64,000 bases of DNA. Origin: Urechidicola croceus (GTDB lineage Bacteria > Bacteroidota > Bacteroidia > Flavobacteriales > Flavobacteriaceae). The stretch spans positions 389,001 to 453,000 of the forward strand of contig CAJIZG010000003.1 in assembly GCA_905181865.1 (NCBI GenBank), in the 5' to 3' direction. Both the position numbers and the translations under genes were made by a program. The notes under the pieces were generated by a model. The model saw only the letters and a program-made list of their open reading frames with translations. It searched no databases and was not told the origin of the DNA. Below are positions 13,273 through 64,000 of this stretch, one piece after another (positions within the stretch are counted from its first letter, which is position 1; each line of letters starts with the position of its first letter).

Positions 13273-14265
13273 TTGATCTTTATCCAAAAACATAGTTCCA
13301 TTCCAAAATATAAGCAAATTATAGCATCAATAGAATTGGCCTTAGAAAATGGAAAACTAAAAAGAGGTGATCAAATACCCTCTGTAAATAAAATAAGTAC
13401 AGCGTTTTCTCTTTCAAGAGATACTGTTCTTCAAGGATACAACGAATTAAAAATGAGAGGAGTCATCCGTTCGGTTCCTGGAAAGGGTTATTACGTAAAA
13501 AGTCAAAATACAAAGGTAAGACAAAAGGTTTTTTTATTATTTGATGAATTGAATGCCTTTAAGGAAAACCTATATAATTCTTTTATTGCTGGTCTAGATA
13601 ATTCCATAGAAGTAGATATTTTTTTCCATCATTTTAATCCAGAAGTTTTTAATGACTTAATATATAATAATGCCGGTAATTATAATTATTATGTTATCAT
13701 GCCAGCAAATATATCCGATACTGTTATTGCGATCAACACACTCCCAAAAAAACAAGTATATATTCTAGATCAATTTCATGAAGATCTATCAGAATATTCC
13801 GCTATTTACCAAAACTTTAAAGAAGACATGTATCATTTTTTAAATAAGGTTAATAGCTCCATAAAAAAATATAAGAAATTTGTCTTTATCTATGATAAAA
13901 ATAAGCAACCAGACGACATGTTGTATGCCTTTCAAAAGTTTTGTACTGATTTTTCGATGGAACATGAAGTTATTCAAACTGTAAATAATCACGAAATAAA
14001 AAAAGGAACTATTTATTTAATTCCAGATGATCGAAATTTAATTCTAATCATCAAAAAAATAAAAAAAACAAATTTTACCATAGGAAAAGACATTGGCATC
14101 ATATCCTATAACGAAACCCTATTAAAGGAGATTGTTGATAATGGGATTACAACAATCTCCACCGATTTCGAATTTATGGGAAAACGATTGGCAGCAATGA
14201 TTCAGAATAAAGAAAAAATACAGATTAAAAATCCGAGTTCGATAATTATTCGAAACTCACTATAA
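13273..14265 (+). CDS. GntR-family transcriptional regulator with sugar-binding-type domain
   Basis: The frame can only open after a stop at 13261, and the TTG at 13273 is the best start (MIFIQKHSSIPKYKQIIASI). Residues about 10-75 form the GntR winged helix (KRGDQIPSVNKISTAFSLSRDTVLQGYNEL). The rest resembles a periplasmic-binding-protein-like effector domain, ending with IGIISYNETLLKEIVDNGITTIS. It is 330 residues long. galK follows after 13 bp, so it most likely controls galactose use, responding to galactose or a phosphate of it (inference). Confidence 0.85.
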   Translation: MIFIQKHSSIPKYKQIIASIELALENGKLKRGDQIPSVNKISTAFSLSRDTVLQGYNELKMRGVIRSVPGKGYYVKSQNTKVRQKVFLLFDELNAFKENLYNSFIAGLDNSIEVDIFFHHFNPEVFNDLIYNNAGNYNYYVIMPANISDTVIAINTLPKKQVYILDQFHEDLSEYSAIYQNFKEDMYHFLNKVNSSIKKYKKFVFIYDKNKQPDDMLYAFQKFCTDFSMEHEVIQTVNNHEIKKGTIYLIPDDRNLILIIKKIKKTNFTIGKDIGIISYNETLLKEIVDNGITTISTDFEFMGKRLAAMIQNKEKIQIKNPSSIIIRNSL

Positions 14266-14278
14266 ATTACGCTTTACT

Positions 14279-15430
14279 ATGACAAACGAATTAATCAAAC
14301 AAATACAAGAGCGTTTCGAAACTACATTCAATAAAGAACCACTTACTATTAATTCTCCTGGACGAATTAATCTTATCGGTGAGCATACAGATTACAACAA
14401 TGGTTTTGTATTACCCGCGGCTATCGATAAAGGTATTATTACAGCCATTCAAAAATCCAATAATAATTTTTGTACAGCCGTTGCCTTTGATTTAGATGAA
14501 ACCTATGATTTTTCTTTGAATGAAATTATTCCTTTAGAAAAAGGAGGATGGAAGAATTATATTATTGGTGTTGCTGCTGAAATTCAAAAATATGGCAAAA
14601 CGATAACGTCTTTTAATATGGTGTTTGGAGGTAATATTCCAAATGGTGCGGGTTTATCTTCCTCAGCAGCTATTGAAAACGGACTCGTTTTCGGATTGAA
14701 TGAATTATTTAATCTTAATCTGTCAAAAAAAGAAATGATTCTAATATCACAAAAAGCAGAACATAATTTCGCACTCGTAAATTGTGGTATCATGGATCAA
14801 TTTGCTAGTATGTTTGGTAAAAAAGATACGGCGCTTATCTTGGATTGTAAAACATTTGACTCTTCAGAATTCAAAATTAATTTTGGTAAGTATCAGTTGT
14901 TGCTAATCAACACCAATGTAAAGCATAGTTTGTCTGAAAGCGCGTACAACGACAGAAGATCTGTTTGTGAAAAAGCAGCAAGTTCAGTTAGCAAAGAATC
15001 TCTTAGAGAAGTTACTGACGAAGATTTGAATATTTTAAAAACAACGCTCTCTATAGAAGATTTTGAAAAGGTTTTATATGTCTCACAAGAAAACTCAAGA
15101 GTTCAAGAAGCCTCAAAGGCAATTACAAATAATGACATACAAACTTTAGGAAGTTTATTATATCTATCTCATCAAGGTCTTCAGCACTTATACAAAGTAA
15201 GTTGTGATGAATTGGATTTTTTGGTTGATTTTTCAAAAAATCACAGTGAAGTCATCGGAGCAAGAATGATGGGTGGTGGATTTGGGGGTTGCACTATCAA
15301 TCTCATTGAAAAAAACGCTGTTCCTTCATTCTCAAAGAAGGTAATAGAGGCCTATTCAAAACAATTTCACAAGGAATGTTCTATTTATGACATCGTATTA
15401 TCAGAAGGAACACATATTCACAAAAATTAA
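14279..15430 (+). CDS. galK: Galactokinase
   Basis: GalK phosphorylates alpha-D-galactose to galactose-1-phosphate, the first step of the Leloir pathway. All signatures of this GHMP kinase are present in 383 residues: SPGRINLIGEHTDYNNGFVLP near the N-terminus, the ATP loop NIPNGAGLSSSAAIENGL, and MMGGGFGGCTINLI near the C-terminus. It sits between the GntR regulator and galT in one operon. Confidence 0.96.
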   Translation: MTNELIKQIQERFETTFNKEPLTINSPGRINLIGEHTDYNNGFVLPAAIDKGIITAIQKSNNNFCTAVAFDLDETYDFSLNEIIPLEKGGWKNYIIGVAAEIQKYGKTITSFNMVFGGNIPNGAGLSSSAAIENGLVFGLNELFNLNLSKKEMILISQKAEHNFALVNCGIMDQFASMFGKKDTALILDCKTFDSSEFKINFGKYQLLLINTNVKHSLSESAYNDRRSVCEKAASSVSKESLREVTDEDLNILKTTLSIEDFEKVLYVSQENSRVQEASKAITNNDIQTLGSLLYLSHQGLQHLYKVSCDELDFLVDFSKNHSEVIGARMMGGGFGGCTINLIEKNAVPSFSKKVIEAYSKQFHKECSIYDIVLSEGTHIHKN

Positions 15431-53644: not shown

Positions 53645-54061
53645 CTAAACAGTATATTTTTTATAGACTGAAGCCCATGGCTCACGCATTGTCCTGGTAA
53701 GCATACTGTTGGCTTTATCGTTATTTAAAATTTGTTCTGTTTTTGGATCCCACTCAAGATCTTGATTCAGTTCCATCGCAACATTACCAAGATGCGACAT
53801 AGTGATTGATCTATGAGCTATTTCTGCAGGAGCAATGCCAAAATGCTTCGCATCATACCACACCGTTTTTTGACCCGAATCAAGTTTGCTGCTCTTCATT
53901 TCAATTGAGTCGGGTTCAGAAGTATCTAGTGGATTTTTGAAGGCTTCTTTTAGTTTATCATCAGTTTGAGATGTGCATGACAGCATTGCGGTTATTAAAA
54001 AAATTAAAATACCGGTAAAGCTGATAATTCTTCTGAAATTGGCTAAAAATATTCTTTTCAT
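53645..54061 (-). pseudogene. Truncated Gfo/Idh/MocA-family oxidoreductase with foreign N-terminus
   Basis: The 138-codon frame starts with a lipoprotein signal (ITAMLSC), then a short linker (PLDTSEPDSIEMKSSKL), and joins VWYDAKHFGIAPAEIAHRSI and HLGNVAMELNQDLEWDPKTE, the C-terminus of secreted Gfo/Idh/MocA oxidoreductases. The Rossmann and catalytic parts are absent. It is paralogous to the remnant before copy A, so the ancestral pair was oxidoreductase plus GH95-like enzyme. Confidence 0.65.
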
Positions 54062-54070
54062 ATATATCTT

Positions 54071-54175
54071 AAATATCTAATTTGAAAAATTTATAGCGAA
54101 TATAGTTCGGTCTCAGTGCAAGAACTATTCATCCGCCAGTGGTGGATAGGATTCCGGTCAAATTAGTATAACTCC
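54071..54175 (-). promoter_or_regulatory. Nested-palindrome leader, copy 1
   Basis: ATATCTAATTTGA at the left and TCAAATTAGTATAACTCC at the right enclose GCGAATATAGTTCGG, an imperfect inner palindrome. A 19-bp insert with its own small palindrome (ATCCGCCAGTGGTGGAT) distinguishes it from copies 2 and 3. It lies about 10 bp upstream of the minus-strand remnant gene at 54061. Confidence 0.65.
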
Positions 54176-54266
54176 TGCAGTGAACACTTGGTATGCCCTT
54201 GCCTTGTCGGGGAAAATATCCCTGTTTTTATTGGATGCGTATATGTATTTATCTACTGACCTCTAT

Positions 54267-54935
54267 TTATTTTAATTCTATTTCAAGGACACCATTCCCC
54301 CCCCTCGTTCCATATCTTGACGCCGCTGGACCATCCAGATAACGAATGGACTTCACATTCAAAGGAACAACATACGATAGATCATCGACTATTGTTCCGT
54401 CAACTACATAAAGTACCGCTAGGCTGCCACCCGCAGAAGAGCTCGATTTCATGGTCTCTACCGATGTGCCACTTACTTTAACAGTAGGTATCTCACCGGA
54501 GATCAGATTATAAATAGTAAGATATCTTGAATAGTCTTTTTGCCCTTTTAAGGGATACTTAACAATTGCCTCTTCGAGTAACTCTTCCCTAATATACCCG
54601 TTTTTAATCGCGGCTTTAAAGCTTGTATTGGTATTGCTGTAAATGAGATCAATCTTTAGATTGTCAATTTTTTTTACTCTTACTTTTTTACTATCAAATC
54701 CGGATGCAACTATTTTTATTACATCTTTTTCTGTACAGTTTATTGAGAATGTCCCCAGAGAATCGGAATAAACAACTTCTCCTGATTTTGAAGCAGTAAT
54801 TTGGACCTTATTCAGGGGAATCACTTTAAACGTAGTCACTGTTCCGGTGACGACTTTTTTCTCCTGAGCATTAAGCGAAAGGCTTTGAATCTGAATAAGC
54901 ACAATTGTAGATAAACATATTATTCTTGTTTTCAT
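54267..54935 (-). CDS. Short TonB-plug protein with carboxypeptidase-regulatory-like domain
   Basis: The 222-residue protein has a signal peptide (ending SLNAQ), a beta-sandwich CarboxypepD_reg-like domain (VVTGTVTTFKVIPLNKVQIT, about 25-100) and a plug-like part (GGSLAVLYVVDGTIVDDLSY, SIRYLDGPAASRYGTRGGNG, VLEIELK). It stops where a receptor barrel would begin, so it is a stand-alone plug or a transducer-like protein. A G8 tract (C8 on plus strand, 54297-54304) lies in the TRGGNG codons. A shared regulatory block lies 35 bp upstream. Confidence 0.75.
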   Translation of the reverse strand: MKTRIICLSTIVLIQIQSLSLNAQEKKVVTGTVTTFKVIPLNKVQITASKSGEVVYSDSLGTFSINCTEKDVIKIVASGFDSKKVRVKKIDNLKIDLIYSNTNTSFKAAIKNGYIREELLEEAIVKYPLKGQKDYSRYLTIYNLISGEIPTVKVSGTSVETMKSSSSAGGSLAVLYVVDGTIVDDLSYVVPLNVKSIRYLDGPAASRYGTRGGNGVLEIELK

Positions 54936-54969
54936 AATTATAAATTTAATTTAGCCATCCCCTGAAAAA

Positions 54970-55127
54970 AACAAATAGCATACCGTTAAGTTATTATTTC
55001 ACTAGTGTTTTAGATTGATTTAAAATTGGAAACCTGTTTAATCTAACTTCTAAGTGTTGTAATTATGACTTAAAAACGTATGACTTTAAAAAAACCCTTA
55101 AAAAAAGATTAAAAAAAATTATAATTC
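54970..55127 (-). promoter_or_regulatory. Shared upstream block of the plug gene
   Basis: About 158 bp match 57647-57806 at high identity (ACAAATAGCATACCGT, TTGATTTAAAATTG, AACGTATGAC, AAAAAAACCCTTAAAAAA). The 3' 60 bp also match the rhaT upstream block. Together with the following AT-rich DNA it fills most of the 546-bp gap 54936-55481. Confidence 0.6.
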
Positions 55128-55306
55128 CTTAAATCCGCAGATTAACTTCAAATCCTCATAATTTTTATCAAAGAGCATATTTTAGACTTATTTTGAGATA
55201 GATTTGAGAAATAAAATAGTTTTTCGCTTATCTGACTATTTTTTAAGTCACTCTTTTTTCCTCTTTGTACTTAGAAATTTTACTGATTTCACAAAATGAA
55301 AAGGAC

Positions 55307-55343
55307 AATTCATAAATAACTAACAAGTAGCTGTTTATGAATT
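55307..55343. terminator. Hairpin in the gap after FISUMP gene 1
   Basis: AATTCATAAA and TTTATGAATT form a perfect 10-bp stem with a 17-nt loop. No T run follows on either strand, so a terminator role is uncertain. Confidence 0.3.
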
Positions 55344-55481
55344 TTAAGGCAACTATTTAGAGCATACTTATTCTATGGAATTTCAAAAAGAGATTGTTTT
55401 TTTCAAAATCTGAGTTTATTTGGTTAAAGCAGTTATATATAGGAAAAATAAGTACCAAAAATGGCCGGTGGAAATACGGTT

Positions 55482-56141
55482 TTAATCCTTGACACAACGA
55501 ACGCTAAAACCGTACTCCTCGTAGGTGTAGTAACGGAATATGGTCGTGCGATCGCAACGCAGGTACCGGGACAATGCGGTTGACGTAGCGTACACAGTAG
55601 CACTCCACCAGACGCCGGTGCTGCCCATAGTGATGAAACTTCCACCGGGGTAGCGGTAACCGCCCGGAAGACCCGAAAATCCGTAGTCATCGGTGCCATT
55701 TCCATTATCAATCCAACCGCTCGTTGCTTTTAATTTGGTGCCTTCGTTTGTACCTCTCCAGCCTGTATCTTCTGCTTCGATTTGGCCCATACCTATTGCC
55801 TTTTCCATTTGTTTCCATTCATCATCGGTAGGTAAGTGCCATCCAGCCGGGCAGGCTTTTTTTGCTGCTTTCCATCTGTATAACCTACCGTAGGTTTTTA
55901 CATTGCTTTCATCGCTGTTGTATGCCCAAGAACCATCACCAACATCGTAAGCGAGATTTTCTGCCATCCACCATTGTTCACCAATTTTTACGGTTTTGTA
56001 AGTTTTGCCATCGCGCGAATCCGTAATTGTACCGGTTTCACCAGTATTATTGTCATCTTTATTTGCTTTTTGTGAAAAGGCAGGATTTGCAATTAGTATT
56101 CCTGCAATAATTGTAATGGCTAAAAAAATGGGCTTTTTCAT
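55482..56141 (-). CDS. FISUMP-domain secreted protein 1
   Basis: The 219-residue protein has a signal peptide (ending PAFSQ), then the FISUMP (Fibrobacter major paralogous) domain: ITDSRDGKTYKTVKIGEQWW, MAENLAYD, CPAGWHLPTDDEW, GGYRYPGGSF and VRCVKD at the end. The domain is C-type-lectin-like and found in surface proteins; a binding role is inferred. It is 8 bp after the transglutaminase gene, so the two are co-transcribed. A close paralog lies at 58018. Confidence 0.88.
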   Translation of the reverse strand: MKKPIFLAITIIAGILIANPAFSQKANKDDNNTGETGTITDSRDGKTYKTVKIGEQWWMAENLAYDVGDGSWAYNSDESNVKTYGRLYRWKAAKKACPAGWHLPTDDEWKQMEKAIGMGQIEAEDTGWRGTNEGTKLKATSGWIDNGNGTDDYGFSGLPGGYRYPGGSFITMGSTGVWWSATVYATSTALSRYLRCDRTTIFRYYTYEEYGFSVRCVKD

Positions 56142-56149
56142 AATCTAAA

Positions 56150-57436
56150 TTAGTTTTTTAATACCAGATTAAAATCAGGGGAAGAATCTGTTCCGGTATA
56201 AATTGTAAATGATTGGTCAATTTTATTTTTCGGATGGCTTACAACTACTTTGTATTCCGTTTCTTTTTTTAGTTTGAATTGCAAGAACTGGTTCATGTCA
56301 TCGGTTACACGAGGCGAATAGCCAAAATCCACTTTTTTGTCCCCTGCAAAAATATCGACCCTGCAACTTAATCTGGATTCGCTTTTCGAGGTGTTTTCAT
56401 CTTTAAAAACTACAAATTTTGCAATTAGTTCATCCTCCTTTAATTTGCTGTTTTTAATCGATTCCTGATATAAATCGATATATTTTTGAGTGACATTAAT
56501 TCCCCAGATATATGGTTCTTCTGCTTTTACTTTAGAAGATTTCATTTGTTCGTAGCGTTTTCGCATGTTCTCCGGCAAAACATCCAAATCAATTTTATCG
56601 GCAAGTAGCCTTGCTCCACCTCCGGCATAATAAGGCATTCCGGTAGGTTTGTACGACGCAGCGTAAATCCAATGCAACATATTGTCAGGGTCAGCTTTCC
56701 CGGCATTGCCTAAAAACCACGATTTATTTAACTTCTCGGGATAGTACTCAATAAATTGCCATTTGTCATCTACGAAAACTTCGCTCCAGGTGTGGTTTCC
56801 TGTGTAGTTTGTCCACATGGGGGTTCCAGCTAAGCGCGATGGAATTCCCACAGCACGAAATGCATCAGTTAAAATAATTGATAAGCCGGTGCAAGTGGCC
56901 ATATTTTCAGCCATCGCTTCTTTTGGGCTCGAATCAACTATCGAGCGATTTGTGTTGTATCCAACATTAACCTCTTTATTAATTGGGCGTGCTATAGCAA
57001 AAATTGCATCAAATAAATTGTCTTTGTCGTCTACATATTTTGCAAAACGTTCGAAGAAATCTTTACGCCAAGGGTCGCGCGTTTCCGAAATATTTGCGTA
57101 AGGCAAAACTTCGTTAAAGAAAATGGAGTCAGGTAGTGCAGCACACCACGAATATTTTTCGCGGGCTTTGTACGCATACGCTGCATTTTCAAGCAAGAAA
57201 TCAGCCGAAAGGGATGTTAAATCGCGTTTAGGCATGTAACTAATTATAAATGCCATTCCCTCTTTTTGTTCTTCGGGTGCTTCTGTAAGAGCTTTTTGTA
57301 ACTCAAGTGAATTTTCACCTGCCTTTGAGAAAGCTGAATCTAAATGCATGTTGTATGATTCGGGAACTCCGGGATATTTGGATTGACAACTCGCAAAAAC
57401 GAAAATTATTAGTGCTAATGAAATTAGTTTATTCAT
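56150..57436 (-). CDS. Transglutaminase-core lipoprotein
   Basis: The 428-residue lipoprotein (VFASC, Cys17) has a helical N-terminus (EEQKEGMAFIISYMPKRDLT) and a transglutaminase-like core with cysteine in MATCTGLSII, histidine in TGNHTWSEVF and DDKWQFIEY. A C-terminal beta domain (about 345-428) follows. It matches the N-terminal half of the fusion protein at 45138 but lacks the esterase. Upstream are a nested-palindrome leader and the shared upstream block. Such cores may act as proteases or transferases; the target is unknown. Confidence 0.83.
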   Translation of the reverse strand: MNKLISLALIIFVFASCQSKYPGVPESYNMHLDSAFSKAGENSLELQKALTEAPEEQKEGMAFIISYMPKRDLTSLSADFLLENAAYAYKAREKYSWCAALPDSIFFNEVLPYANISETRDPWRKDFFERFAKYVDDKDNLFDAIFAIARPINKEVNVGYNTNRSIVDSSPKEAMAENMATCTGLSIILTDAFRAVGIPSRLAGTPMWTNYTGNHTWSEVFVDDKWQFIEYYPEKLNKSWFLGNAGKADPDNMLHWIYAASYKPTGMPYYAGGGARLLADKIDLDVLPENMRKRYEQMKSSKVKAEEPYIWGINVTQKYIDLYQESIKNSKLKEDELIAKFVVFKDENTSKSESRLSCRVDIFAGDKKVDFGYSPRVTDDMNQFLQFKLKKETEYKVVVSHPKNKIDQSFTIYTGTDSSPDFNLVLKN

Positions 57437-57471
57437 ACTGTTCTATTTTTTGTTATTAAAATATTAACTTA

Positions 57472-57555
57472 TATATCTAATTTGAAAAATTTATACCGAA
57501 TATAGTTCGGTCAGAGAGCAAGTTCTATTCAATTCCTGTCAAATTAGTATAACCC
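57472..57555 (-). promoter_or_regulatory. Nested-palindrome leader, copy 2
   Basis: CTAATTTGA and TCAAATTAG form a perfect 9-bp outer inverted repeat, and ACCGAA-TATAG-TTCGGT is a perfect inner one. It starts 36 bp upstream of the transglutaminase ATG at 57436. No convincing -7 box falls at a fixed place inside it. Confidence 0.7.
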
Positions 57556-57646
57556 CAGCCCTTAGCCAGGATATAAGTAGAAAATGAATTTAGGTTTATT
57601 CTTCTATAAATCTAAAATTGTTCAACGTGATTTCATTGTTAAAAAC

Positions 57647-57806
57647 TAAAAACAAATAGCATACCGTCAAGTTGTTATTTCACTCGTGTTTTGGATTGAT
57701 TTAAAATTGAAAAACTGTTTAATCTAACCTCTAGGTGTTGTAACTACTGCTTAAAACGTATGACGTTAAAAAAACCCTTAAAAAAGATTAATAAAATTAT
57801 AATTGT
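57647..57806 (-). promoter_or_regulatory. Shared upstream block of the transglutaminase gene
   Basis: Partner of 54970-55127 and, in its last 60 bp, of 36841-36900. It lies about 210-370 bp upstream of the transglutaminase start, with leader copy 2 in between. The 581-bp gap 57437-58017 is filled by leader copy 2, this block and a GH32 fragment. Confidence 0.6.
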
Positions 57807-57837
57807 AAAAATAACAACCCAGTTGAGCGACTATTTT

Positions 57838-58010
57838 TTATTCAACACAAAGATGACTCGGCTTGGGATACATAGCCAACGGCAAATCCTCCCTGTGAAT
57901 CAAATCTGTACTTACGGCATGCCCCCAATGCCAACGGTAATCTTCAGGCAGAATGGCCTGATAAAAGAGGTGCCAACGCCCCTGCCTGAAACACAATCCG
58001 TTGGTTAGTC
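57838..58010 (-). pseudogene. N-terminal fragment of a GH32-like glycoside hydrolase
   Basis: On the minus strand the frame reads NGLCFRQGRWHLFYQAILPE and later RWHWGHAVSTDLIHREDLPL before a stop at 57838. This is the first blade of GH32-type enzymes (the nucleophile motif NDPNG, then WHLFYQ, HWGHAVS and DLPLA). The NDPNG part is damaged by a stop and a frame break. The remaining four blades are absent. Confidence 0.6.
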
Positions 58011-58017
58011 AACCAAA

Positions 58018-58677
58018 TTAATCCATGACGCACCTAACACTAAATACGACAGCCTTTTTGTCGCTGTGCCGGCTTACTCCAGGTTTAGTGCAATACAGGG
58101 TCCGGTACCATACGGTATACGGAGAGTACTCAGTCGCACTCCACCAGGCTCCGCTGCTGCCAATGCCGTAGAAATTCCCACCGTAGGTGCGGTAACCGCC
58201 CGGAAGACCCGAAAAGCCGTAGTCATCGGTGCCGTTTCCATTTTCGTTCCAACCGCTCGTTGCTTTTAATTTGGTGCCTTCGTTTGTACCTCGCCAGCCT
58301 GCATCGTCTGCTTCGCTTTGGCTCATACCTATAGCCATTTCCATTTGTTTCCATTCGTCATCGGTAGGTAAATGCCATCCAGATGGACAGGCTTTTTTTG
58401 CTGCTTCCGATGTGTATAACCTACCGTAGGTTTTTACATTGCTTTCATCGTTGTTGTATGCCCAAGAACCATGACCAATATCGTAAGCGAGATTTTCTGC
58501 CATCCACCATTGTTCACCAATTTTTACGCTTTTGTAGGTTTTGCCATCGCGCGAATCCGTAATTGTGCCTGTTTTAACAGTATTATTGTCATCTTTATTT
58601 GCTTTCTGTGAAAAGGCAGGATTGGCAATTAGTATTCCTGCAACAATTGTAATGGCTAAAAAAATGGTTTTTTTCAT
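58018..58677 (-). CDS. FISUMP-domain secreted protein 2
   Basis: The 219-residue protein is a close paralog of FISUMP protein 1, with the same signal peptide and core (SVKIGEQWWMAENLAYD, CPSGWHLPTDDEW, VRCVMD). Differences cluster in the last 60 residues (GNFYGIGSSGAWWSATEYSP, TKPGVSRHSDKKAVVF), the stretch likely to form the ligand face of a C-type-lectin-like fold. It follows a truncated isomerase gene and precedes the GH32 fragment. Confidence 0.87.
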   Translation of the reverse strand: MKKTIFLAITIVAGILIANPAFSQKANKDDNNTVKTGTITDSRDGKTYKSVKIGEQWWMAENLAYDIGHGSWAYNNDESNVKTYGRLYTSEAAKKACPSGWHLPTDDEWKQMEMAIGMSQSEADDAGWRGTNEGTKLKATSGWNENGNGTDDYGFSGLPGGYRTYGGNFYGIGSSGAWWSATEYSPYTVWYRTLYCTKPGVSRHSDKKAVVFSVRCVMD

Positions 58678-58738
58678 AATCTGAGTTTATTTTGATTCAT
58701 ATAATATTTAATCCTACCCTTCTTCTGCAAAAGCACAG

Positions 58739-58893
58739 TTACTGCTCTTCTGCAAAGCGCCTTTGATAATCCTGCCAGGTTTCCATTGTTTGGGTAAGCG
58801 TTTCAACAACATCGCCTTTAAGGTTATAACATTGTATTCCAAAAGGACCATCGTAACCATTATCTTTAAGTGATTTTACAAGTCCATAAGTCT
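58739..58893 (-). pseudogene. C-terminal end of a TIM-barrel sugar isomerase, cut at a GC-rich junction
   Basis: On the minus strand the frame reads VKSLKDNGYDGPFGIQCYNL, then WQDYQRRFAEEQ and a stop at 58739. This is the last helix-strand unit of a xylose-isomerase-like TIM-barrel protein. It ends abruptly at about 58893, where composition changes to GC-rich DNA that belongs to the acetylesterase gene. Confidence 0.65.
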
Positions 58894-58977
58894 AAAGCCC
58901 TTCCTTGCTCATTCCGCTATGCAAGTCGCAATCCCTACGGACGATGCGTTCGGAAGGGGCCAGCGGGCAGGCCTTCT

Positions 58978-60387
58978 TTATTTATGAGGTTTGGCTGGGC
59001 TACCTGGTCCCAGGCGAATCTTGCTTCGAGTCGGTTTGGCGATTGCGTCGCTGGAGACAACAATGGTGATGCCGTCGATCACGGCTTGGGCCTTGACGAA
59101 TTTCCCGTCTTCGCCCGCGATCTCAAACCAGTCGAGGGGCTTGGCGTCGCGCGAGGCGAGGCCGCTTCCGGTATGGTCGAAACTCAGGCGAATCTTGCCG
59201 GCTTCGATAGCCATCGAATTATAGAGGGGACCGGAGTAGACGAGGTCATCCTGGCCATAGTCTTTCGCAAGAGCCCAGAGCGCGAGGCGTTTCCCAACGT
59301 CTAGCTTGTTGCTGGGATGGATGTTCGCTACATTACCGATGTCCGAGATGACTGCCATGCCGGTGTGGGGAATGGCCAGAGCGGCGCTCTGGGCCTCCCA
59401 GAGCAGGGGGAGAGTGCCTTGACCGTCGCCGTAGGGAGCGACGTAGCGATAGGGGGCGATCTGCACAAAGTAGAAGGGGGCGTCGGGGCGCAGAAAGACG
59501 TTGCGCCAGGATTGGATGAGCGCCTGCATTTTATCGAAGTAGAGCATGCCGTCGCCATTGTTCGATTCGCCCTGGTACCAGGTGGCGCCGCGTATGGCGA
59601 AGGGAACGATGGGATTAATCATCGCGTTGTAGAGCAGCGTGGGATGTGCATGTGAGGTTCTGGAAGATGCCGGGTCGTGGAGAATATCCTGGATTTCGGC
59701 GATACGTTCCAACATGTCGGGCAGGCGCGAGATTTCTTCGTGGCGCGTCCAGGCTTCAATGATCGATCCGCCCCACGAGGAGTTGATGAGTCCGACAGGC
59801 ACTTCGATGGACTGGTGGATTTCGCGTCCGAAGTAATAAGCGACGGCCGAAAAGCCCCCGATAGTCTCCGGCGAACAGGCTTGCCATTGGCCGACGATGT
59901 CGTCCTGCGGATCGATGGCGATGTCGCGCGGAACGGAAAAAATCCGGATGTTGGGGTGCTTGGCTGCTTTAAATTCGGAGCTGCTAACGGCCATTTCCAT
60001 GTTGGATTGGCCCGAGCAGAGCCAAACCTCGCCCACGAGGATGTCGGTGAGTTGGATGGTCTCTTGCCCTGCCTTAACTGTCATCGTCAGCGGACCTTTG
60101 CCGCTTCCGAGGGGCGGCAGGGTAACGCGCCAGCGCCCTTCCGCGTTCGCGCGGGTGCGGGCGGAGTGCGGGCCAACCTCAACAGTGACAGTGCGGCCGG
60201 GCGCGGCCCAGCCCCAAATAGGCAGGGGCTGGTCGCGCTGGAGAACCATGTGGTCGGTGAAGATGTTAGCCATTCGGAATGTGGGCTGCAGCTCAGCGGC
60301 GTACAGGCGATGGCCTGCAGTGCCGCCAAGTAACAGGGCGGCCATCATTATAGTTAGGATTGCTTTTCGTAATATGATGTTTTTCAT
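58978..60387 (-). CDS. Sialate O-acetylesterase-like SGNH esterase, C-terminal frameshift (copy 1)
   Basis: The 469-codon gene has a signal peptide (ending RLYAAE), a beta domain (GWAAPGRTVTVEVG), and an SGNH core with the nucleophile Ser128 in CSGQSNMEM, then GLINSSWGGSIIEAW, GATWYQGESNN and the late DIGNVANIHPSNK block. A one-base insertion relative to copy 2 changes the end to KIRLGPGSPAKPHK. The old frame would give RFAWDQVAQPNLINKEGLPA and stop at 58935. GC content is far above the neighbours except in the first 15 codons. Such enzymes remove acetyl groups from sugars. Confidence 0.85.
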   Translation of the reverse strand: MKNIILRKAILTIMMAALLLGGTAGHRLYAAELQPTFRMANIFTDHMVLQRDQPLPIWGWAAPGRTVTVEVGPHSARTRANAEGRWRVTLPPLGSGKGPLTMTVKAGQETIQLTDILVGEVWLCSGQSNMEMAVSSSEFKAAKHPNIRIFSVPRDIAIDPQDDIVGQWQACSPETIGGFSAVAYYFGREIHQSIEVPVGLINSSWGGSIIEAWTRHEEISRLPDMLERIAEIQDILHDPASSRTSHAHPTLLYNAMINPIVPFAIRGATWYQGESNNGDGMLYFDKMQALIQSWRNVFLRPDAPFYFVQIAPYRYVAPYGDGQGTLPLLWEAQSAALAIPHTGMAVISDIGNVANIHPSNKLDVGKRLALWALAKDYGQDDLVYSGPLYNSMAIEAGKIRLSFDHTGSGLASRDAKPLDWFEIAGEDGKFVKAQAVIDGITIVVSSDAIAKPTRSKIRLGPGSPAKPHK

Positions 60388-60486
60388 TTTTAATTGATTT
60401 TTTTGTGAATCTTTCTTTGCGTAACGACCTGAATATAAACAATTAACATCGCTTTTACTTGCTTTTAATTTACATTTTTAAGTACT

Positions 60487-60539
60487 AACCTGAGTTCGAT
60501 TAAAACTCTGAGGCTAATATTTTTAATCCAACTCAGGTT
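60487..60539. mobile_element. 53-bp mini-element with IS982-like ends
   Basis: AACCTGAGTTCGATTAA at 60487-60503 and TTAATCCAACTCAGGTT at 60523-60539 are inverted repeats that match the ends of the IS982 element at 29640 (one mismatch on the right). Only 19 bp lie between. It is either a deletion derivative or a MITE-like unit, and it may also form a hairpin after the rhamnosidase gene stop (60541). Confidence 0.7.
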
Positions 60540-60540
60540 A

Positions 60541-63207
60541 CTATTCTATCGATATTTCATAACTCCCTGACACAAGATTTAGAGTATAGATTCCACTTTC
60601 CGGCTCCTTATCATATTCTATGCCAATATCAGAAATATTTTTTGCCCTAAGTTTTAGTGTTGCGGTACTATTTGCAGGTATTGTGACACTGTACAAAACC
60701 TTGCTGTTAGATCTCTTCCACGAACTTACAATTTCGCCGTAAGGGCTATTGTGTTTTGCTTCAAAGTGTTCTAGTCCGTCAACAAAATGAGGTTCTAAAA
60801 GGATGTTTTTAAAACCGGGCTTCGATGGATCCGGTTTTATTCCTCCCAATGCTTTATAATACCATGCACCTATCTCGCCAAACATTATATGATTACGCGA
60901 CGAAGCTCCTTTCCAATCTTCGAATAGCGTGGTTGCTCCGTTAACAATCCACCATCCCCACGATGGGAATGTTTCTTGCGAAGCCACCTTGTAGGCCAAA
61001 TCAGCATATCCATTTTCACTCAATGCATTTAAAATTGCTTTACTTCCCAACAATCCAACATCAATATGATTACCATCAGCAACTACCTTTTTGGCAAGAT
61101 TATCAGCCACTTGCTTACGAGACTCTTCGGGCACTATACCCCAGAAAAGAGCAGTACTTAGTTCTGTCTGAAAGCCACTTCCATAAATCCCGGTATCTTT
61201 ATTAAAATATTTTTTGTTGATTGCAGCTTTAATATTATTGGCCAATTCGGCATAGTTTACATAGTCAGACTCATTACCTAATAGTTTTGCTGTCTTCGAG
61301 AGAATTGTTGCATCAACAAAATAATAGATTGAAGATGTAAACTCTTTAGGTGTTCTTGATTTTACGGGTACCCAATCTCCTAATCCCCAATCTGTAATAT
61401 ACTCCGGACTTATTTCCGAAATATGATCGACGTACCGTTTTATATTGTCATAGCAATCTGCGAGCAGTTTGGTGTCGCCATAAAAGAGATAGATATTCCA
61501 TGGTATTATCGCGATTGTGCTTGTCCAGTCGGGACCATTTCCCCATGCATATCCCCAATCGCTCGAAGGAATTATTGATGGTAGTACTCCATTAGATTGT
61601 TGTTCGTCTCTGTGATCTGCCAACCATTTTTCGTAAACTGTAATTCCATCAAAATTATAGAGCCCGGTTTCAATGGCGATATGCGCATCTCCTGTCCAAC
61701 CATTCTTTTCGCGTTGTGGACAATCGGTAGGATAACCAAACAGATTAGATAAATAAGCACTATTAGTAGCTTTCCATAGCTTGTTTAATGTTTTATTAGA
61801 ACTATTAATAGTTCCCGTGGGGGGAACATCGCTATGCATAAAAATTCCTGTCAAACTATTTTCTGTCAGGTTAATTGGCTTGTTACTAACAACTTCTACA
61901 TACTGAAATCCTTTGTAATTAAACTTTGGAACAAAAGTCTCAAGCCCTTCGCCTTTTAATGTATAGATATCTGTTTGAAATGGATCTTTATCGTCAGTAG
62001 GCCTGTAATGAGCAATTATATTTGAAAGATCTATATCTCCTTTATCATCAATTAACTCCGAATGTGTTACTCTCAGTTCAGTTCCTGCATCACCTTTCAG
62101 ACTAATTTTAGTTACTCCTGCAATAGTTCTACCCAAATCAAACACATATTTCCGGCTATTAACTTTACGTATACTAACGGGAGTAATCTGTTCTACATCT
62201 CTAATAGGATGCATAAGCTGTGAGACAATATTTTGGGAAGGCGCAGCCGTATTTATACTATTCTTCCAGCCGGAATCATCAAAACCTGCATTATTCCATC
62301 CGGGCTGCTCTAAACGTGCATCGTAGTGCTCGGCTGTATAAATGCTGTTAAAGACAACAGGGCTTAGGGATGTTTTCCAATCTCTATCAGTCGATATTGT
62401 TTCTACAGTTCCATCCTCATAAGTAATCCTTAAATCCATACAAAATTTTGGCCGTGCCCGCCAAGGAGCTTCGTGAAAGAACCAAACTGCTGTAGATTGA
62501 TGATTATACCAACCATTTCCAAGAAGAACACCAACTGCATTGTTTTTTTCCAAAAGATCTGTAATATCGTGTGTAAGATATAAGTTACGGCGATCGAATC
62601 TGGTGTAATTGGGGTCAAGGCGATGATCTCCAACGCGTTTACCATTAATATACAGTTCGTAAAGACCCCCAACAGCAATATATGCCTGTGCCTTTTTAAT
62701 TTTTTTCTTTGCTTCAAACTCCTTCCTGAAATATGGAGCAGGCTTTAAATCAAGATTTCTGGTATCACTTATCCATGCTCCTTTCCAGTTTGTCATCTGC
62801 ATCATGCCGGTTTCAAAATTAGCAACTTTCGAAGCATCACTCTCTTTTTTATCCTTATCCCAAACCTGAACAGTCCAGTAGTATTTTGTAAAAGGTTTAA
62901 GTGGCTTACCCCGGTAGGTAACAAGCGTAGATTCATCTACAACTTTTCCGGTATTCCACATATCTCCTGAACCATTTAAAACCTCTTCTAAGTCAGTTCC
63001 TACTATTATTTTGTAGGCGTTTTGAGTAGCGCCCTCTCTTTTGTCGGATATTTGCCATCTAAATCTCGGGTTCTCCGAATCTACACCAATTGGATTGCTT
63101 AGATACTCGCATAATAAATGTTTAGGGAGGCATTCATTCGTTCTATTGTTACACGAAAAAAGCAGTGCAATAAACAGAACTGCAATAACAGATTTCAGTA
63201 TTTTCAT
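60541..63207 (-). CDS. GH78 alpha-L-rhamnosidase, lipoprotein
   Basis: The 888-residue lipoprotein (LLFSC, Cys19) has fibronectin-like and Bac_rhamnosid domains: CEYLSNPIGVDSENPRFRWQ, YINGKRVGDHRLDPNYTRFD, VLLGNGWYNHQ, FDLGRTIAGVTKISLKGDAG, and the (alpha/alpha)6 core with DCPQREKNGWTGDAHIAIE (general acid) and TTLFEDWKGASSRNHIMFGE. It lacks the discoidin insert of the GH78 protein at 47725. It cleaves terminal alpha-L-rhamnose at the cell surface or in the periplasm. A nested-palindrome leader precedes it. Confidence 0.93.
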   Translation of the reverse strand: MKILKSVIAVLFIALLFSCNNRTNECLPKHLLCEYLSNPIGVDSENPRFRWQISDKREGATQNAYKIIVGTDLEEVLNGSGDMWNTGKVVDESTLVTYRGKPLKPFTKYYWTVQVWDKDKKESDASKVANFETGMMQMTNWKGAWISDTRNLDLKPAPYFRKEFEAKKKIKKAQAYIAVGGLYELYINGKRVGDHRLDPNYTRFDRRNLYLTHDITDLLEKNNAVGVLLGNGWYNHQSTAVWFFHEAPWRARPKFCMDLRITYEDGTVETISTDRDWKTSLSPVVFNSIYTAEHYDARLEQPGWNNAGFDDSGWKNSINTAAPSQNIVSQLMHPIRDVEQITPVSIRKVNSRKYVFDLGRTIAGVTKISLKGDAGTELRVTHSELIDDKGDIDLSNIIAHYRPTDDKDPFQTDIYTLKGEGLETFVPKFNYKGFQYVEVVSNKPINLTENSLTGIFMHSDVPPTGTINSSNKTLNKLWKATNSAYLSNLFGYPTDCPQREKNGWTGDAHIAIETGLYNFDGITVYEKWLADHRDEQQSNGVLPSIIPSSDWGYAWGNGPDWTSTIAIIPWNIYLFYGDTKLLADCYDNIKRYVDHISEISPEYITDWGLGDWVPVKSRTPKEFTSSIYYFVDATILSKTAKLLGNESDYVNYAELANNIKAAINKKYFNKDTGIYGSGFQTELSTALFWGIVPEESRKQVADNLAKKVVADGNHIDVGLLGSKAILNALSENGYADLAYKVASQETFPSWGWWIVNGATTLFEDWKGASSRNHIMFGEIGAWYYKALGGIKPDPSKPGFKNILLEPHFVDGLEHFEAKHNSPYGEIVSSWKRSNSKVLYSVTIPANSTATLKLRAKNISDIGIEYDKEPESGIYTLNLVSGSYEISIE

Positions 63208-63229
63208 TTTTTTAGCTTTTATAACTTAA

Positions 63230-63313
63230 ATATCTAATTTGAAAATTTATACCGAACATAGTTCGGTCAGAGTGCAAGAACTATTTAATTCCGGTCAAAT
63301 TAGTATAACTCCG
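63230..63313 (-). promoter_or_regulatory. Nested-palindrome leader, copy 3
   Basis: It has the same outer CTAATTTGA / TCAAATTAG arms and inner ACCGAA / TTCGGT palindrome as copy 2. It begins 23 bp upstream of the GH78 start at 63207. A GC-rich tract belonging to the second acetylesterase gene begins about 10 bp beyond. Confidence 0.7.
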
Positions 63314-63372: not shown

Positions 63373-64000
63373 CTACGGGCGATGCGTTCGGAAAGGACCG
63401 GCGGGCAGACCTTCTTTATTTATGAGGTTTGGCTGGGCTTCCTGGTGCCAGGCGAATCTTGCTGCGATCGGTTTGTCGACGGCGTCGCTGGAAACAACAA
63501 TGGTGTTGCCCTCGATCACGGCTTGGGCTTTGACGAATCTTCCGTTTTCACCAGCGATTAGAAACCAGTCGAGGGGCTTGCCATCGCGCGAGGCGAGCCC
63601 GCTTCCGACATGGTCGAAACTCAGGCGAATCTTGCTGCCTTCGATAGCCATCGATTTATAGAGGGGACCGGAGTAGACGAGGTCTTCCTGGCCGTAGTCC
63701 TTGGCGAGAGCCCAGAGCGCGAGGCGCTTGCCAACGTCTTGTTTGTTGCTGGGATGTAACCAGTTGCTCTTGACGATGTCCGAGATGACGGCCATGCCGG
63801 TGTGCGGAATGTCCATAGCAGCGGTCTGGGCCTCCCAGAGCTCAGGGAGAGCGAATTCATTGCCGCCGCCGTAGCTATAGGGCGCGATCTGCACAAAGTA
63901 GAAGGGGGCGTCGGGGCGGAGGAAGACGTTGCGCCAGGATTGGATGAGCGCCTGCATTTTGTCGAAGTAGCGCATGCCGTCGCCGTGGTTCTGCTCGCCC
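63373..64000 (-). CDS. Sialate O-acetylesterase-like SGNH esterase (copy 2, 5' end outside window)
   Basis: The frame is open across the window edge: GEQNHGDGMRYFDKM precedes the internal ATG at 63975, as in copy 1 (GESNNGDGMLYFDKM). The visible 209 residues hold the C-terminal part of the esterase with VKSNWLHPSNKQDVGKRLAL and end with the normal family C-terminus NLINKEGLPAGPFRTHRP, which copy 1 has lost. Composition is again GC-rich. The two copies flank the GH78 gene in the same orientation. Confidence 0.87.
   Translation of the reverse strand, partial: GEQNHGDGMRYFDKMQALIQSWRNVFLRPDAPFYFVQIAPYSYGGGNEFALPELWEAQTAAMDIPHTGMAVISDIVKSNWLHPSNKQDVGKRLALWALAKDYGQEDLVYSGPLYKSMAIEGSKIRLSFDHVGSGLASRDGKPLDWFLIAGENGRFVKAQAVIEGNTIVVSSDAVDKPIAARFAWHQEAQPNLINKEGLPAGPFRTHRP

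Follow-up and report, generated by a model that had tools for sequence, protein, structure and literature searches.

Repeated leaders in a glycan-degradation locus of Urechidicola croceus as probable insertion-sequence ends and candidate outward promoters

In Bacteroides fragilis, mobile promoter regions (IS1186 and others) reportedly lie upstream of cfiA. Insertion sequences (ISs) with an outward-reading end are a well-known kind of element: section 10 of PMC9330008 treats outward promoters as an established property of IS ends, and its section 4.4 names IS3, IS4, IS5, IS6, IS481, IS982, IS1380, and ISL3 as families with complete outward promoters. Here, we analyzed a 64,000-nucleotide stretch of the Urechidicola croceus genome (C3:389001–453000, referred to as the window; genome label G000), in which three copies of a short leader with nested palindromes stand in front of minus-strand genes of a glycan-degradation locus. 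To judge from its sequence and that of its relatives, the repeated leader is very probably the right (R) end of an IS. The best explanation as a whole, which we hold to be probable, is that this end was retained ahead of glycan genes as an outward promoter.

The arrangement resembles that of ISs with outward promoters in that an element end, present in multiple copies, lies just upstream of genes in the readout sense, and in its terminal inverted sequence and target duplication. It differs in that the promoter is a predicted one and the copies are mostly solo ends within one glycan locus, whereas ISs with outward promoters stand as whole elements ahead of resistance genes. Common to this locus and the cfiA system are Bacteroidota IS ends that supply promoters (here, candidate ones) to the gene behind; the cfiA cases, however, are single insertions in clinical isolates, and those described here are repeated old ends in one locus. 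As with miniature inverted-repeat transposable elements (MITEs) and mobile insertion cassettes, the units are short and no transposase was seen in them, and an esterase and a Fib_succ_major gene lie passenger-like between a left (L) end (60482) and an R end (57469), reminiscent of such cassettes. Unlike in these elements, the flanks TACTA and TTAAT form no duplication, and most R copies lack an L end. A literature search of open-licence papers returned no description of the element.

Window copies and the ends of an insertion sequence

The copies, named by their kilobase position on C3, lie on the minus strand at 54068–54172 (copy 1, g443), 57469–57553 (copy 2, g446), and 63225–63311 (copy 3, g452), as determined by a genome search with copy 3, nhmmer, and alignment; a sequence-only reading had placed them at roughly these positions and on the same strand. 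Chance is excluded as the source of the repeat, with copy 3 matching the other two at E = 1.9e-27 and 4.9e-20. As that reading had described, all three copies have perfect 9-bp outer arms (CTAATTTGA/TCAAATTAG); between the arms, copy 1 holds ~20 additional nt. A scan for the inner palindrome (ACCGAACTATRTTCGGT) located it at 54095–54111, 57495–57511, and 63251–63267 (minus strand); copies 2 and 3 match its arms, ACCGAA/TTCGGT, perfectly, and copy 1 carries one mismatch (ACCGAA/TTCGCT). With up to three mismatches allowed, the inner palindrome gave four matches versus 0.39 expected, two of them being the same site on both strands, while a two-arm pattern scan with a gap of 20–50 gave none because the arms are in fact farther apart (53 nt in copy 2). 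The unit also exceeds the 85 bp first ascribed to it: it has a sharp end at ...TATTTAAG, similarity continues inward to ~150 bp in three genomes, and the likeness of copy 1 to other genomes extends inward to ~54234. The R end comprises ~90 well-conserved bp and up to ~150 bp in total, and the IS has the termini CTTAAA/TTTAAG and makes 5-bp target duplications.

The partner end was found in bin.700 (G431), a metagenome-assembled genome of the Bacteroidetes. Scanning a contig collection with the 18-bp palindrome yielded 20 loci, of which 11 were kept as element-bearing; the other nine (from Rhodococcus, Antrihabitans, Clostridia, Saccharofermentans, and Flavobacterium petrolei) had only the palindrome in common and were dropped. 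Seven of the 11 are bin.700 contigs ending 12–75 bp ahead of the palindrome. Altogether, bin.700 holds eight R ends, all at contig ends and matching the query at 98–100% identity where aligned, and nine L ends; these are near-identical, every one lies at most 140 bp from a contig end, and outside the sharp edge the flanking sequences are unrelated. A 34-bp stretch of the L end has nine mismatch-free occurrences in bin.700 and a single one in bin.586, near contig ends, and was not found in four other genomes searched. The terminal sequences (CTTAAATA... and CTTAAAAATG...) show a short inverted match of 6–8 bp in bin.700.

One insertion could be reassembled across contigs. The R edge in L039 falls inside atpZ (G431 C20/C552), and an atpB search led to contig C552 (L082), whose first 36 bp end in ...ACATTTTTAAG and are followed by the missing last AtpZ residues. 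The gene is split between the R end of L039 and the L end of L082, with TTTTC on both sides and the termini CTTAAA...TTTAAG; without the element and one TTTTC, its frame reads through and covers positions 2–53 of 54 of PF09527, as opposed to 2–43 before. The element also interrupts an M23 peptidase gene (G431 C613), of which the adjoining fragment covers only positions 44–96 of 96. Four of the eight R flanks match an L flank over 5 bp and none does over 4 or 6 bp, whereas 394 shifted controls gave a mean of 0.17 and a maximum of 2 (the bin.586 ends, coming from another genome, were excluded from this count). The bin.700 copies look young and sit anywhere: four of the eight R and two of the nine L ends have a start codon in sense at most 150 bp away, and some copies cut genes.

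The partner end, the 5-bp target duplication, and the insertions inside genes overturn the initial impression that the leader is unlike an IS end. Random placement, as for a MITE, which had been named as evidence against a leader element, does hold in bin.700 but fails in the genome of the window. The same data bear on a reading of the leaders as attC-like recombination sites of a cassette array. Such an array would account for the uniform orientation, for one element between successive genes, and for several copies abutting the upstream stop codon (in g473, g525, and g527 the palindrome is 13, 29, and 17 nt away from that stop), but not for the insertions within atpZ and the M23 gene, the 5-bp duplication, or a partner end that differs; we rejected it as vanishingly improbable. 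As a more general warning, repeated 'leaders' ahead of unrelated genes can be transposon ends, and a relative may reveal them as such through a partner end, target duplications, and contig breaks.

By its sequence matches the element appears rare and patchy, which fits a mobile element. In overlapping surveys, seven of 60 relatives including G000 had a match at E ≤ 0.01, only G000 and G019 over more than 25 bp; four of 397 genomes of the family did at E ≤ 0.001, two of these over 23–28 bp only; and at E ≤ 1e-4 the phylum and order surveys gave two and five of 395, outside G000 over just 26–35 bp. The family, phylum, and order surveys took the best two candidates per genome, so that a genome holds at least the copies counted. 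Searches of plasmids, phages, and viral contigs returned no match to the element. This distribution also speaks to the idea that the sequence originated as a host promoter-operator of a sugar regulon, which an IS later captured as its end, the glycan-locus copies being the original regulon. Old copies do precede genes in five genomes, several of these genes encoding glycan enzymes, and they have a common inner boundary without an L end. However, the surveys place the element in very few genomes, 13 genomes of the same genus contain only pieces of 19–25 bp, and the G000 copies stop at the IS edge, making capture very improbable.

Copies and left ends in the glycan-degradation locus

Searching the whole U. 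croceus genome with copy 3 returned 20 matches up to E 10. Eight were strong (E ≤ 3e-10), one was a fragment of 30 bp (E 9.5e-4), and the remaining eleven measured 14–27 bp. The best nine all lie on the minus strand of C3 443068–527339, and nhmmer over 161 kb recovered the same eight copies (E ≤ 1.3e-15) plus weaker remnants, including one at C3 ~513505–513540 that has lost half of the palindrome and sits ~11 bp ahead of a start codon. All eight clear R copies fall inside one 85-kb minus-strand stretch, in gene sense and each ahead of a gene, leaving the earlier notion of a regulatory unit ahead of genes plausible for this genome. The element edge precedes the ATG by 6, 32, 17, 11, 42, 24, and 144 bp in the seven measurable copies (the edge of g473 has decayed), the first three values being those of copies 1–3 with their ATGs at 54061, 57436, and 63207.

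From 443 kb onward, the genes behind the eight copies encode an oxidoreductase remnant, a transglutaminase, glycoside hydrolases (GHs) of families GH78, GH32, GH78, and GH32, a GFO/IDH/MocA oxidoreductase, and a sugar transporter. Those in the window are open reading frames on the minus strand that Pfam assigned as the sequence-only reading had named them: the GFO/IDH/MocA oxidoreductase remnant of 138 aa (53645–54061) behind copy 1, the transglutaminase-like protein (56150–57436) behind copy 2, and the GH78 alpha-L-rhamnosidase (60541–63207) behind copy 3. Across 16 proteins of the locus, Pfam identified SusD, a TonB plug/SusC-like protein, FecR, GH78 (two), GH32 (two), GH20, and GH92, together with sulfatase, SASA esterase, sugar transporter, GFO/IDH/MocA oxidoreductase and its remnant, transglutaminase-like, and Fib_succ_major matches; further GH genes were assigned by eye.

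The G000 copies are 67–94% alike (mean 83%). Five full-length copies are 93–97% like the bin.700 sequence and three truncated ones 79–87%, a star-like divergence more in keeping with separate insertions than with serial duplication. One local duplication is nevertheless evident from the 270 bp (87%) that g522 and g524 have in common. Accordingly, the proposal that the leader travels with expression units stands insofar as it moves, but it does so by transposition of the element and only in part by duplication of units. The outer left arm is gone in three of the eight copies. The truncated copies g473, g525, and g527 retain the stretch from the palindrome through the TAnnTTTT box; deletion reached this core and then halted, which suggests that the core was retained.

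The copies might instead be functionless IS debris, R ends that persist in a duplicated, decaying locus where only intergenic insertions were tolerated. Remnant genes and repeated units are abundant in the locus, the promoter scans are weak, and the bin.700 copies sit anywhere, as debris would have it. Yet all eight copies are in gene sense, three independent prunings halt at the same core, and single old copies in other genomes also precede genes, namely those for a GH29 fucosidase (L027) and a GH3 enzyme (L045) and a 258-aa gene with no Pfam match (L043). In L044, masking hides the gene that follows the element. On balance, we regard debris as an unlikely though serious account.

Left ends were found in this locus, too. 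One, read inward on the minus strand at 60406–60482 (E 2.6e-23, 91%; 65 of 77 positions identical to bin.700, ungapped), forms the leader of a gene for a SASA-type carbohydrate esterase (58978–60387, minus strand; open reading frame, Pfam), and a second, older one lies at C3:471390–471466 (E 8.9e-13). The older end belongs to a relic (L022 ~14030–14466; C3 471030–471466) that combines an L end with a diverged R-like stretch ~325 bp inward. This R-like stretch (L022 ~14076–14141) has a perfect hairpin of altered letters, GCCGGATAAAATCCGGT, and no T tail. An esterase at C3 ~491.3 kb and the L-end junction in the window have TTAGTACTTAAAAATG in common, a pattern that either loss of the L end by deletion between two TTAAAAATG repeats or duplication of esterase units would produce.

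Outward promoter and RNA structure

On the sequence evidence we lean, by a modest measure, towards the R ends having a promoter role, that is, towards an outward promoter that selection retained after transposition. The R end would carry transposase-binding repeats (three TGACCG copies) plus the outward promoter; the element would have inserted upstream of glycan-locus genes by transposition, and copies that landed there would have persisted because the following gene is driven or tuned by them, the remaining element being lost. Transcripts would then start within or just behind TATAAATTTTT of the R ends. The flavobacterial –7 box is given as TAnnTTTG in PMC9723704. TTG and TAnnTTTT at a spacing of 25 occur in seven of 177 upstream regions compared with 0.9 expected, but among the 14 sites of this kind on the minus strand of the 161-kb region, six belong to the element itself. 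A spacing of 15 is in excess as well (9 versus 0.7), two or three of its ten minus-strand sites lying in a second repeated leader (see below).

Should the ends be promoters, the locus would offer a countable case of a Bacteroidota glycan locus gaining co-expressed genes, with an IS end supplying the switch and deletion trimming the rest. A bolder extension, which we consider doubtful, is that one IS end was reused at least eight times as a promoter-operator and that a single regulator reading the palindrome wires much of the 85-kb region; if true, a bacterial regulon would have been assembled by transposing one IS end and pruning the rest.

Several observations weigh against an IS end kept as a promoter. 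Although eight of eight copies in gene sense has a probability of 1/256 under random orientation, genes run on the minus strand nearly throughout from 443 to ~548 kb, so orientation is tied to the locus, in which local duplication is ongoing. Within the putative promoter the consensus is weak, the TTG-to-TAnnTTTT distance in the element being 25–26 bp, and sigma-70-like sites occur at chance level (21 versus 23.5 expected). Neither L end of G000 has a 5-bp duplication matching the neighbouring R end, and rearrangement or loss must therefore have followed. The solo R units in L027, L045, and g443 all begin at the same AAAAACAGGG, ~150 bp from the edge; random decay offers no explanation for this common start, which leaves room for a shorter, MITE-like unit.

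Moreover, neither a transposase nor a full-length copy was seen, the assemblies breaking inside the repeat, and Pfam on the pieces near the ends returned no assignable transposase family. An L-end search at E ≤ 0.01 with the best three candidates per genome gave matches in 81 of 296 relatives; judged by their coordinates, all but the two in G000 are short AT-rich pieces, and the best of these, in G022 (the sole one inspected), has a terminator-like hairpin next to it but no R end. Two further candidates were set aside: an rve_3 fragment upstream of the L085 R end, weak (E 0.0011, below the cut-off) and in surroundings not common to other copies, and a transposase gene at the locus edge (L026:15172–15882, plus strand; DUF772 and DDE_Tnp_1) with no TTTAAG in the 1.5 kb examined.

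A last point on this side is that the inner hairpins of copies 2 and 3 score as terminator-like. They raise the alternative of a transcription terminator or RNA switch, in which the hairpin and T-rich stretch act in the transcript. Folding of the window copies surpasses that of shuffled sequences (z –3.3, –2.8, and –2.5), and the diverged relic keeps its perfect hairpin GCCGGATAAAATCCGGT, which is one hint of a conserved stem and hence of the stem's importance. Conversely, three other copies reach only z 0.25, –1.8, and –1.1, the relic lacks a T tail, and a plain terminator directly ahead of a start codon would leave the sense orientation unexplained. The covariance check that had been suggested gave no two-sided change in any of 15 pairs across 13 sequences (the relic hairpin lies outside this alignment), and 92.9% of cells pair, compared with a shuffled mean of 93.0. 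With pairing no higher than in shuffles, the outer left arm lost in three of eight copies, and no Rfam family match in the window, the RNA structure once proposed for the leader finds no support, and we consider an action in the transcript highly improbable.

Other repeats of the locus

The second repeated leader, of ~175 bp, lies on the minus strand of the same locus, and its copies are 89–95% alike where near full length. It occurs at 54967–55126 and 57646–57820 of the window and at C3 470569–470742, 475129–475199, 477472–477644, and 493984–494120. A 52-bp part of it (81%) recurs ~36 bp ahead of a fecR-like gene (C3 547953–548004), so that the leader may represent a native promoter region of the locus.

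A pair of 219-aa genes (window 55482–56141 and 58018–58677) are closely similar and differ most in a C-terminal stretch; the second matches Fib_succ_major, and both are gene copies within this locus. Several genes for SASA-type esterases, and one remnant, lie at window positions 58978–60387 and 63373–63975 and at L023 8978–15309. These genes have in common a GC-rich 3′ stretch of ~60–86 bp that recurs five times, and their leaders bear pieces of the L or the R end.

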